Origin: Aquisalimonas lutea
Lineage (GTDB): Bacteria > Pseudomonadota > Gammaproteobacteria > Nitrococcales > Aquisalimonadaceae
Length of the DNA: 64,000 nt
Direction: 5' to 3'
Assembly: GCF_030409225.1 (NCBI RefSeq)
Contig: NZ_JAUFPK010000001.1
Span: forward strand, 2,037,566 to 2,101,565
Part shown: piece after piece, positions 47,833 through 51,676 of the stretch
How the letters are laid out: the number at the start of each line of letters is the position of its first letter
How positions within the stretch are numbered: the stretch's first letter is position 1
Program-made: the position numbers and the translations under genes
The notes under the pieces: model-generated
What the model saw: only the letters and a program-made list of their open reading frames with translations
The model's database searches: none
Told to the model about the DNA's origin: nothing

Positions 47833-47919
47833 TGCAGGGCATCGGGGCCGGACGGCCTGCGCGGCGGGGCTCCGCTAGTCGCCCCAATCATGATCCGCCC
47901 CCGGCCCCGATGCCCTGCA
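47833..47919. repeat. 19-bp perfect inverted repeat between suhB and trmJ
   Basis: TGCAGGGCATCGGGGCCGG at 47833-47851 is the exact reverse complement of 47901-47919, around 49 bases. Perfect 19-bp complementarity at this distance is not expected by chance even in GC-rich DNA. It lies between two divergent starts, so it is not an ordinary terminator. Confidence 0.8.
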
Positions 47920-47984
47920 CCTGCACCGCTGCCCCCGGATTCTCGATTACACTGTGGGGCTTTGAGCCTGGCCTGGGAGAGATG

Positions 47985-48722
47985 ATGCACCCCGAGAACA
48001 TCCGCGTGGTCCTGGTGGCGCCGTCGCTGGCGGCGAACGTCGGCGCCGCTGCGCGGGCCATGAAGACCATGGGGCTGACCGACCTGCACCTGGTCGCGCC
48101 CCGGCAGTTCCCCCACGAGGATGCCGCCACCATGGCCTCCGGCGCCGATGACGTGGTGGCGGCCGCGCGGGTGCACGCGACCCTGGACGAGGCGCTCGCC
48201 GGTGCCACCCTGGTGGTGGGGCTGTCCGCCCGGCAGCGATCGCTGTCCTGCCCGGTGCAGGACCCGCGGGAGGCGGCCGAAGAGCTGCTGGCGGAGGCCG
48301 GCGAGCGGCCTGTGGCCATCCTGTTCGGGCGTGAGCGCACCGGGCTGACCAACGCCGAGCTGGACCGCTGCCAGCGCCTGGTCAACATTCCCGCGAATCC
48401 CGGCTACAGCTCCCTGAACCTGGCGGCCTCCGTGCAGGTCATGGCCTACGAGCTGCGCATGGCGGACCGCGCCGGGGTCCGCCCGCAGGCGGCGCGCTCG
48501 GAGTGGCCGCCGGCGGCCGCCGACGACATGGAGCGCCTCTACGAGCACCTGGAACGCGTACTGATGCGCATCGATTTCCTCGACCCGGACAACCCCCGGG
48601 CGCTCATGCGACGGCTGCGCCTGCTCTTCGGCCGGGCTGCGCTCGACCACAACGAGGTCCAGATCCTGCGGGGGATCCTGGCGCACGTGGAGAAGTCGCT
48701 GGCGGATCCGGGACGTTACTGA
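47985..48722 (+). CDS. trmJ: tRNA (cytidine/uridine-32 2'-O)-methyltransferase TrmJ
   Basis: This 245-residue SPOUT methyltransferase opens HPENIRVVLVAPSLAANVGAAARAM. The SAM-binding knot includes FGRERTGLTNAEL and NIPANPGYSSLNLAASVQV. It methylates position 32 of tRNAs. GGGAGAG precedes two ATGs (47982, 47985), and the second gives the better spacing. It is followed by the cysE leader, so read-through may feed the sulfur operon. Confidence 0.9.
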   Translation: MHPENIRVVLVAPSLAANVGAAARAMKTMGLTDLHLVAPRQFPHEDAATMASGADDVVAAARVHATLDEALAGATLVVGLSARQRSLSCPVQDPREAAEELLAEAGERPVAILFGRERTGLTNAELDRCQRLVNIPANPGYSSLNLAASVQVMAYELRMADRAGVRPQAARSEWPPAAADDMERLYEHLERVLMRIDFLDPDNPRALMRRLRLLFGRAALDHNEVQILRGILAHVEKSLADPGRY

Positions 48723-48752
48723 TTGTCCCCGGTGCACGGAATTGGCTAATAT
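48723..48752 (+). promoter_or_regulatory. promoter-like element upstream of the cysE leader
   Basis: TTGTCC at 48723-48728, an 18-base spacer, then TAATAT at 48747-48752 (or TATATC at 48750-48755). Each box keeps three or four of six consensus bases. Transcription would start near 48759-48763, at or just before the leader ATG. The leader peptide would then be almost leaderless. Confidence 0.4.
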
Positions 48753-48762
48753 ATCCAGTCCC

Positions 48763-48831
48763 ATGACCGGATTCACGCACTGGCTCTGTTGCCGCCCCTC
48801 CTGTAGCTGCGACTGTCGTCGCTGTCGCTGA
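48763..48831 (+). CDS. cysteine-rich leader peptide, probable Cys-responsive attenuator
   Basis: This is a 22-codon frame with ATG at 48763 and TGA at 48829. It has six Cys codons at 48787, 48790, 48802, 48808, 48814 and 48823, ending CDCRRCR. It lies 59 bases before cysE, the first gene of cysteine synthesis. No strong ribosome site precedes it, but a promoter-like element ends about ten bases upstream, so it may be translated leaderless. Two competing RNA pairings overlap the Cys codons: CTGTCGT (48813-48819) with ACGACAG (48848-48854), and GTCGTG (48833-48838) with CACGAC (48847-48852). Ribosome stalling at Cys codons when tRNA-Cys is uncharged could choose between them. Polycysteine leaderless peptides acting in this way are known from mycobacteria; finding one before cysE here is inference. 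Confidence 0.65.
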
Positions 48832-48890
48832 AGTCGTGTCAATCGTCACGACAGGCTCGATCCCGCTTATTCCGGACAAGGACATACCCC

Positions 48891-49715
48891 ATGTTTGCGC
48901 GTATTCGAGAGGATATCCGTTGCGTCTTCGAGCGTGACCCCGCGGCCCGCAACGCCTTCGAGGTGCTCACCTGCTACCCGGGCCTGCACGCGTTGCTGTG
49001 GCACCGGCTCTGCCATCGCTTGTGGGGCTGGCGGCTGCGCTGGCTGGCTCGGTTCGTCTCCCTGTTCGCACGCTGGATCACCGGCATCGAGATCCATCCC
49101 GGGGCGCGGATCGGCCGGCGGTTCTTCATCGACCACGGCATGGGCGTGGTCATCGGCGAGACCGCGGAGATCGGTGACGACTGCACCCTCTACCACGGCG
49201 TGACCCTGGGCGGCACGACCCTGGAGCCGGGCAAGCGCCACCCCAGCCTGGGCGACGACGTGGTGGTGGGCGCCGGCGCCAAGGTGCTCGGGCCGGTGCA
49301 CGTCGGCAGCGGAGCGCGGGTGGGCTCCAACGCCGTGGTCATCAAGGATGTGCCCGAGGGCGCCACCATGGTGGGCATTCCGGCGCGCATGGCCGGCCAG
49401 CGGGAGGAGAAGACGCCGCAGCGCCAGGCCACGGCGCGCAAGATCGGCTTCGATGCCTACGGCACCACCGACATGCCGGACCCGGTCAGCCAGGCCATCA
49501 ACTCCATTCTCGACCATATCCACGTGACCGACGAGCGCCTGGTGGAGATGTGCCGGGCGGTCCAGGAGCTGGGCGGGCGCCTGCCGGATGCCCGCATCCC
49601 CGACCTGGACTGCACGCCGTTCGAGAACGGCCAGGAGCCGGAGCAGGAGCCGGGCCGGGAAACCGTCACGGAGCAGGCGGGGGAGGGCGACGGCACCGGT
49701 GACCACGCCCGCTGA
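48891..49715 (+). CDS. cysE: serine O-acetyltransferase CysE
   Basis: This 274-residue enzyme acetylates serine with acetyl-CoA, the first step of cysteine synthesis. The left-handed beta helix carries catalytic Asp81-His82 ([11 protein letters not shown]) and His102 (LYHGVTLGG). The N-terminal helical part is shorter than in E. coli CysE (His158 there). The C-terminal tail is long and acidic. AAGGAC precedes the ATG. The 3' end overlaps the iscS start by 17 bases, so cysteine synthesis and desulfuration are cotranslated. Confidence 0.9.
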
Positions 49716-50952
49716 GCTGCCGTATCTCGACTACGCCGCCACCACGCCGGTGGACCACCGGGTGATGGCGGCGATGACGGACTGCCTCGGCCGCGAGGGC
49801 GTATTCGGCAATCCCTCCTCCCGGCACCCATGGGGGCGGGCCGCCGAGGCCCTGGTCGCGGATGCCGCCGGGCAGGTGGGCGCGCTCATCGGCGGCGATC
49901 CGGCCGGTGTCGTGTGGACCTCCGGCGCCACCGAGGCGGACAACCTGGCCATCCTGGGGTGCGCCCGGTTCGCCCGAGAGCGGGGCCGCGGCGATCACGT
50001 GGTGAGCGTGCGCACCGAGCATGCCGCGGTGCTCGAGCCCCTGGAGCAACTGCGCCGCGAGGGCATGCACGTGACGCTGCTCACCCCGGAGGCGGATGGC
50101 CGCGTGACGCCGGAGGCGGTGCGCGCCGCAGTGACCGAGGACACCGTGCTGGTGTCGGTCATGCACGTGAACAACGAGATCGGCACGGTGCAGGATATCG
50201 CCGGCATCGGCGCGGCTCTGGCGGATCACCCCGCGCGCTTCCACGTCGATGCCGCCCAGAGCGCCGGCCGCCTGCCCATCCGGGTCGATGCCTGGGGCGT
50301 AGACCTGCTTTCGCTGTCCGCCCACAAGATCTACGGCCCCAAGGGCGTGGGCGCGCTCTGGGTACGCCGCCGGCCGCGGGTGCGGCTGGCGCCGCTGCTG
50401 CACGGGGGCGGCCAGCAGGGCGGCCGGCGCCCGGGAACCCTCGCCCCGCACCTGATCGCCGGCATGGGCCGGGCGTGCGAGCTGGCGCAGGACGGCCCCG
50501 AAACCGAGGCCCCTGGGCTGCGAACGCTGCGACGATCCCTGCGCGACCGGCTCCTGGCGCTGGACGGGGTGGTGGTGAACGGCCAGGACGATGGCAGCCC
50601 GCACATACTCAACATGAGCTTCGGCTGCGTCCACGGCGATGCGCTGCAGGCGGAGCTGGAGGGGCTGGGGGTATCGGCCGGCTCGGCCTGCAGCTCGTCG
50701 GCGCGCGGCCCGTCCCATGTCCTGCGCGCACTCGGGGTTCCGGATGCCCTGGCGCACAGCAGCCTGCGCTTCAGCCTGGGCCGCTGGACCACGGAGGCGG
50801 ACGTGGACCGGGCCGCGGACCGGGTCGAGGACGCCGTGCGGCGGCTGCGCGCGTTCTCGCCGGCGTGGCGGCGCTATCGGTCGGGAACGTCGCTGGAAGC
50901 CCTCTACCGGCGGAACCCCGAGCCGGCGCAGCCGTCCAACCGGGAAGGTTAG
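49699..50952 (+). CDS. iscS: cysteine desulfurase, IscS type
   Basis: This 417-residue PLP enzyme starts at a GTG within cysE. The PLP lysine is Lys210 ([11 protein letters not shown]) and the sulfur-carrying Cys331 is in [15 protein letters not shown]. Both are close to the E. coli IscS positions (Lys206, Cys328). It releases sulfur from cysteine for Fe-S clusters and tRNA thiolation, for example TtcA. The C-terminus extends past the usual end. The operon lacks iscR, hscBA and fdx. Confidence 0.9.
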
Positions 50953-50958
50953 TAAACC

Positions 50959-51336
50959 GTGGAACTGCAGGGCACGGCAAGGGAGCACTACCGCGCGCCG
51001 CGCAACGCCTCCGGGCTTCGGGGCGTCGGTGCATCGGTCGGCACGGGCACCGCCGGTGATGTACAATCCGGGATAGAAGTCGTGTTTCAGATCATCAGCG
51101 ATGATCAGGGGCGTATCCGGCAGGCGTGCTGGGAATGCCTCGGCCCGCCGGCGGTGATTGCCGCGGCGAGCTGGCTGTCCGAGCAGCTGACCGGGGCGCC
51201 GGTCGATGACGCTCGCGGCTGGACGGCCCTGGCCATCAGTGAAACCCTGGAGTTGCCGGCGGAGTCGGTCTCCGGGGTGTTGCTGGTGGAGGATGCCTGC
51301 AAGGCGGCCCTGGCGGATCTGGAACGACACGGGTGA
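50959..51336 (+). CDS. IscU-like scaffold with missing cluster cysteines
   Basis: This 125-residue protein starts at a GTG and follows the IscU layout. HYRAPRN is at 10-16, VGTGTAGDV at 27-35, ECLGPPAVIAAASWLSEQL near 59-77, and LLVEDACKAALADL near the end. IscU uses three cysteines. Here the first (in APACGD) is Ala32, the second is kept as Cys60, and the third (in HCSIL) is Ser or Gly. Cys57 and Cys114 are new. The ligand Asp (GDV) remains. It may still receive sulfur but cannot hold a standard cluster, or it may form one with unusual ligands. It is seven bases after iscS. Confidence 0.65.
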   Translation: MELQGTAREHYRAPRNASGLRGVGASVGTGTAGDVQSGIEVVFQIISDDQGRIRQACWECLGPPAVIAAASWLSEQLTGAPVDDARGWTALAISETLELPAESVSGVLLVEDACKAALADLERHG

Positions 51337-51352: not shown

Positions 51353-51676
51353 ATGACGATCCAGTTGACGGAAGCGGCGGCACGACATGTCAAGGCCAAC
51401 GCCGAGCGGGAAGGGCGTGACCACAGCCTGCGTGTGGGGGTGCGCACCAGCGGGTGCTCCGGCTTCATGTACATCGTCGACTATGCGGACGAGGTCGGCG
51501 AGAGCGATCTCGTCTACGAGCAGCACGGCGTCCGCGTGGTGATCAGCCGCAAGAGCCTGCCGTTCCTGGAAGGCATGGAGGTGGACTTCGTGCGCGACGG
51601 GCTGAACCAGCGCTTCGACTTCCGCAACCCCAACGTCCGCGACATGTGCGGGTGCGGCGAGAGTTTCACGGTGTGA
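51353..51676 (+). CDS. iscA: A-type Fe-S carrier IscA
   Basis: This 107-residue A-type carrier has the three conserved cysteines: Cys35 in SGCSGF, and Cys99 and Cys101 in DMCGCGESF. It receives clusters from a scaffold and passes them to target proteins. The neighbouring iscS and IscU-like genes support a role in the Isc pathway, although the scaffold is unusual. It ends the operon, 188 bases before ndk. Confidence 0.9.
   Translation: MTIQLTEAAARHVKANAEREGRDHSLRVGVRTSGCSGFMYIVDYADEVGESDLVYEQHGVRVVISRKSLPFLEGMEVDFVRDGLNQRFDFRNPNVRDMCGCGESFTV

Follow-up and report, generated by a model that had tools for sequence, protein, structure and literature searches.

Stalled ribosomes in mycobacteria reportedly unmask a downstream ribosome binding site. 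Three reports (PMC9031893, PMC13236596, PMC9094748) describe leaderless polycysteine short open reading frames as experimentally supported cysteine attenuators in these bacteria, with ribosomes slowed at Cys codons acting through translation attenuation. Seliverstov et al. 2005 (PMC1262725) predicted candidate cys leader peptides that lack a terminator in Mycobacterium, P. acnes and B. longum; these precede cys or cbs operons, carry Cys-codon runs near the stop codon and have a pyrimidine-rich stretch suggested for Rho, and no conserved hairpins were reported. The uORFC-8-2 motif of the Rhodobacterales, located before cysS, contains tandem Cys codons and is a proposed Cys-tRNA sensor (PMC8632094). 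In Rho-dependent leader-peptide attenuation (tna; PMC12121999, PMC7815308), translation of the upstream open reading frame decides whether transcription terminates prematurely.

The locus described here is located in a 64,000-nt stretch of the Aquisalimonas lutea genome (the window), and all of the features given below are on its + strand. A 22-codon short frame with six Cys codons (ATG to TGA, 48763-48831), the proposed cysteine-sensing leader peptide, ends 59 nt before the cysE ATG (48891); on re-reading, these values matched exactly those of an earlier sequence-only reading of the same DNA. The gene order was trmJ, short frame, cysE, IscS-like, IscU-like and IscA-like; profile matches placed trmJ upstream and bore out the previously claimed order cysE-iscS-IscU-like-iscA.

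Like the mycobacterial attenuators, this locus has a Cys-codon-rich short frame ahead of a cysteine-metabolism operon, predicted to start very close to the beginning of the mRNA, and lacks an intrinsic terminator; by analogy, the same attenuation of translation by ribosomes slowed at Cys codons is proposed. In contrast to the mycobacterial systems, the host belongs to the Gammaproteobacteria rather than the Actinobacteria, the ATG is predicted to lie 3-5 nt inside the mRNA, and one locus, cysE, was found in the genome rather than a set of loci. A genome-wide pattern search for a second polycysteine leader gave 20 matches compared to 17 in the reversed control, none of them convincing by eye; this result is a weak negative, since the pattern, which allowed at most 9 nt between the -10 element and the ATG, was too tight to recover the window's own frame. 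The element is a plausible member of the same functional kind; the likeness is functional, and no peptide or nucleotide homology is claimed. The actinobacterial leaders of PMC1262725 share with it the Cys codons, the missing terminator and the candidate Rho stretch, although they occur in another phylum and before other operons. The uORFC-8-2 motif is likewise a proteobacterial upstream frame with Cys codons, but it is alphaproteobacterial, is dominated by UGC, controls cysS and ends in an intrinsic terminator. The Rho-dependent tna and related leaders also lack an intrinsic terminator; they respond to a different signal from that proposed for cysE.

A -35-like element, TTGTCC (48723-48728), directly follows the trmJ stop codon (TGA, 48720-48722), and a -10-like element, TAATAT (48747-48752), lies beyond an 18-nt spacer, with 10 nt separating its end from the ATG of the short frame. 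Both elements were read directly and the promoter looks sigma-70-like; a stricter consensus promoter scan did not call the TTGTCC/TAATAT site. The sequence GATTGT at -35 was unchanged across five congeners, and the sister genera g2 and g4 carry TTGG in the equivalent position. Each of the ten family leaders has a TAnnnT hexamer 6-10 nt ahead of its ATG, and a -10-like hexamer occupied this position in nearly all of the 23 leaders accepted in this study, each of which precedes cysE; in several relatives the -10 ends 6 nt before the ATG, as against 10 nt in the window. With the transcription start assumed to fall approximately 6-8 nt past the -10, the mRNA should begin some 3-5 nt before the short-frame ATG, leaving no room for a Shine-Dalgarno sequence. 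The peptide, suggested earlier to be perhaps leaderless, is better described as 'near-leaderless', with a predicted 5' UTR of about 3-5 nt, than as strictly leaderless. An in-frame TTG at 48742 was considered as an alternative start and was rejected: it falls in the spacer between the -35 and -10 elements and would not be transcribed from the predicted promoter. No Rfam cis-regulator (T-box or riboswitch) was found at gathering score, a tRNA being the sole Rfam match in the window.

The short frame was retained in all five genomes of the genus, and Cys 9, 10, 14 and 18 were invariant among them; these genomes include one recorded as Aquisalimonas sp. (L002), whose cysE is 84% identical to that of the window. 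The frame reads MTGHLHRLCCQRHCCCCCRCCD in one congener, MNMHTCPLIRSCCRCCRCC, MKSMILTRYSYSCCSRPCY and MNMCTCPITRASCCRCPC in g2, and MLAHAPSITAPSSCRCCPND and MNISNLPASLSTHCRCRRNA in g4, giving a family total of ten leaders in three genera, all with the frame; it was absent from the four genomes of a further genus of the family, g3. In other families of the order, a frame with one to three Cys codons was found in thirteen genomes, including those of Arhodomonas aquaeolei (L003/L105) and Alkalilimnicola ehrlichii (L007/L107), and was absent from most genomes of some of these families. In total, leaderless-type short frames with Cys codons preceded cysE in 23 of the 53 cysE-bearing genomes of the order, a count that leaves out two doubtful cases (L106 and L117) and for which the out-of-family frames were selected by visual inspection, partly on the position of the promoter. 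No comparable frame was seen upstream of cysE outside the order, at about 70 named gammaproteobacterial loci and in 47 further genomes of many families. A separate origin from the mycobacterial attenuators is most likely, because the element appears restricted to one gammaproteobacterial order.

Several individual leaders had features of their own. In the Arhodomonas leader (L105), a nearly perfect hairpin of approximately 18 bp begins just past the Cys codon and contains the stop codon of the frame (z = -3.6 compared to shuffles). In L107, L108, L110, L113 and L114 the last Cys codon is placed exactly two codons ahead of the stop (C-x-stop), and a GC-rich hairpin often follows directly. Across all 23 leaders, no conserved hairpin was detected immediately after the short-frame stop; local folds had a mean z of -0.4, and four leaders fell below -1.

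Shuffling the window's frame yielded six Cys codons in fewer than 1 of 1000 cases (1.85 expected). In the ten family leaders, 54 TGY codons were in frame, compared to 4 and 1 in the two alternative frames (Fisher, p = 5e-22), a result that upheld the expectation that the Cys codons would be conserved in related genomes. In the 13 out-of-family leaders, several of which have one Cys only, the corresponding counts were 22, 14 and 11 (p = 0.05), or 17, 9 and 9 with one leader per lineage (p = 0.055). All 23 leaders together carried 76 Cys codons, compared to 31 ± 4.6 in dinucleotide shuffles. Because the leaders share ancestry, the counts cannot be treated as independent trials. They indicate strong selection for Cys codons within the family; outside it, such selection is only suggested. 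The leader is real and conserved, and probably regulatory.

Two helices were kept within the genus. The hairpin H1 (48809-48822), inside the Cys-codon cluster, pairs 48809-48813 with 48818-48822; 90% of its alignment cells were paired, and three pairs had changed on both sides. The long-range helix H2 joins the start of the short frame to the segment adjoining the cysE Shine-Dalgarno sequence. In the genus alignment, its 5' arm, TG.CCGGA (48764-48771, leader nt 2-9), pairs with a 3' arm, TCCGG.CA (48871-48878), located inside an invariant 14-nt block, TCCGGACAAGGACA; the Shine-Dalgarno sequence AAGGA (48878-48882), read directly and also invariant in the genus, abuts the helix. Although 97% of the H2 cells were paired in the five congeners, covariation was thin because most pairs never vary (five of seven), and congener G001 breaks one pair.

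Masking of the cysE start was modelled across the wider set of leaders. The beginning of the short frame tended to pair with the cysE start region more than shuffled sequences did (mean p = 0.23, 23 leaders), and this pairing fell when 5' ends were swapped between lineages (mean p = 0.29, 13 lineages; z = 2.6); by Fisher combination the swap test gave p = 0.08. A simulated ribosome at the first Cys codon, with the widest footprint, lowered the opening energy of the cysE start in 13 leaders and raised it in 3 (p = 0.003); narrower footprints gave p values of 0.07-0.09. The window's own leader showed a negligible change, from 6.4 free to 6.1 stalled. In a few leaders the Cys codons lay strikingly at the edge of the masking zone; this arrangement was ruled out as a general feature, since opening energies did not differ between Cys codons and other codons from codon 7 on. 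Masking of the cysE ribosome binding site is favoured but not proven, because the pairing, swap and stalling computations support it and the effect in the window itself is negligible; as a platform for control, masking by the short-frame start is given slightly less than an even chance.

In the proposed mechanism, the near-leaderless short frame that opens the cysE operon mRNA would act as a ribosome-based sensor of charged tRNA-Cys. When cysteine is ample, translating ribosomes would cross the Cys codons fast and depart, after which the short-frame start would pair with the segment touching the cysE Shine-Dalgarno sequence and cysE would be poorly translated; in a possible addition, Rho would end the untranslated, C-rich leader. 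When cysteine is scarce, a ribosome held at the Cys codons, the first of which in the genus is codon 9, would cover the 5' part of the short frame, so that H2 would stay open and cysE would be made. The sequences themselves show that the coding frame and H2 are conserved, that Cys codons are selected in the family, how the promoter and the ATG are spaced, and that the leader has a C-rich stretch; we infer translation of the frame, stalling and the direction of the response, together with the masking step. That the frame is a Cys-tRNA-sensing attenuator of cysE, whatever its output, is considered likely.

The same sensor could have a Rho-dependent output, in which Rho, once ribosomes have completed the short frame, would be drawn to the exposed C-rich leader and would end transcription ahead of cysE or within it, while a ribosome held at the Cys codons would exclude Rho or reshape the leader. 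A terminator scan agreed with the earlier reading that no intrinsic terminator is visible in the leader. In the post-frame leader (48832-48878 in the window), which comprises the last 50 nt or so before the cysE Shine-Dalgarno sequence, C exceeded G in all 23 leaders, with a mean skew of 0.25, whereas a control set of 51 other upstream regions gave -0.02 ± 0.16 (with a single leader per lineage, p = 5e-6); this C-rich, G-poor stretch is an order-wide candidate for a rut-like, Rho-loading element and gives the earlier suggestion of Rho indirect backing. Rho was also proposed for the actinobacterial cys leaders on similar grounds (PMC1262725). However, the stretch spans only about 50 nt, the window's own skew is a modest 0.15 and falls inside the control range, and a ribosome stalled at codon 9 would leave the C-rich stretch uncovered. 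A Rho output is a credible possibility that we hold at clearly less than even. Classical transcription attenuation would depend on the two pairings of one downstream segment that the earlier reading set out: CTGTCGT (48813-48819) with ACGACAG (48848-48854), and a hairpin of GTCGTG (48833-48838) with CACGAC (48847-48852; hairpin 48833-48852). Both are present at these coordinates and they exclude each other, but four congeners retained only 3-5 of the 7 pairs of the former and 0-2 of the 6 pairs of the latter. Furthermore, when the leader was dinucleotide-shuffled, 60 of 2000 sequences (3%) offered a 7-bp arm in competition with a 6-bp one, and there is no U-run terminator. These folds do not form a conserved switch, because they are absent from congeners; their loss even within the genus makes this explanation highly improbable and places it close to refuted. 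Of the earlier proposal, the central idea of a leaderless polycysteine peptide that controls cysE through tRNA-Cys charging holds up on the conservation of the Cys codons; the RNA switch does not, a different long-range helix, H2, being the one kept.

The remaining explanations dispense with tRNA charging. A Cys-rich nascent or released peptide might sense metal or thiol state in the manner of CutF/CruR; the paired Cys motifs of the genus (CCxxxC) could bind metal, and CutF-like upstream frames do use Cys motifs (PMC9973294). Those frames combine a Sec signal, a CxxxC motif and a proline-rich stalling end (PMC9973294), whereas by inspection the 22-residue peptide has neither a signal-peptide-like stretch nor a proline-rich end, and the gene downstream is cysE. 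A codon sensor suits the data better than a metal site because across the order the number of Cys residues drops to one to three and their spacing is not fixed; peptide-based sensing is regarded as very unlikely. Finally, the frame could be a chance or neutral one in a GC-rich leader, its Cys codons deriving from TGY-rich RNA elements. The marginal frame preference outside the family and a whole-leader fold no stronger than that of shuffles (z = 0.03) are compatible with such an origin, but it accords poorly with the 54:4:1 frame ratio in the family, the conservation in ten genomes of three genera and the narrow range of promoter-to-ATG spacing, and is judged unlikely. The attenuator that senses Cys-tRNA charging is the preferred explanation.

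The cysteine pathway begins with CysE, and the gene encoding this serine O-acetyltransferase (48891-49715; TIGR01172, 252.5 bits, cut-off 210.65) is single copy, the sole match of its family in the genome. The upstream gene, trmJ, encodes a tRNA methyltransferase (47888-48722, start approximate; TIGR00050/TrmJ match) and was also found upstream of cysE in the loci of the order that were checked. Downstream are genes for an IscS-like cysteine desulfurase (49699-50952, approximate GTG start; Aminotran_5, with TIGR02006 at 449 bits, below the equivalog cut-off of 643), an IscU-like protein (50959-51336; NifU_N, with TIGR01999 at 65 bits, cut-off 192) and an IscA-like protein (51353-51676; TIGR00049 above cut-off). 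The IscU-like protein lacks the three cluster-ligand cysteines and, when aligned by eye, has A, P and G at what we take to be the positions of C37, C63 and C106 of E. coli IscU. In its relatives across the order the counterpart of C37 is missing too, as is that of C106 wherever the match extends that far; some retain C63. The protein may be a non-scaffold paralogue.

The arrangement of cysE followed by the iscS-like gene, with no space for iscR between them, was common to other genomes of the family and to several further families of the order. No IscR was found above the NCBIfam cut-off in the window's genome, which gave three weaker matches. The leader peptide may be linked to the loss of IscR control in the cysE-iscS-like operon. 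The fullest version of the proposal, in which an order-wide gammaproteobacterial cysteine attenuator, independent of the mycobacterial one, is the main regulator of the cysE-iscS-IscU-like-iscA operon that lost iscR and combines ribosome-binding-site masking with a Rho output, is rather unlikely to hold in every part.

A search of the open-access literature, with few subscription journals covered, returned no report of such a leader for the Gammaproteobacteria or for cysE. Experimental knowledge of leaderless amino-acid-sensing short frames comes largely from mycobacteria, in which leaderless mRNAs are common, and cysteine regulation in the Gammaproteobacteria is usually credited to transcription factors. 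An order-wide gammaproteobacterial case, if true, would suggest that evolution arrived at this solution on two occasions, and would offer a single locus at which to test leaderless initiation directly in the class.
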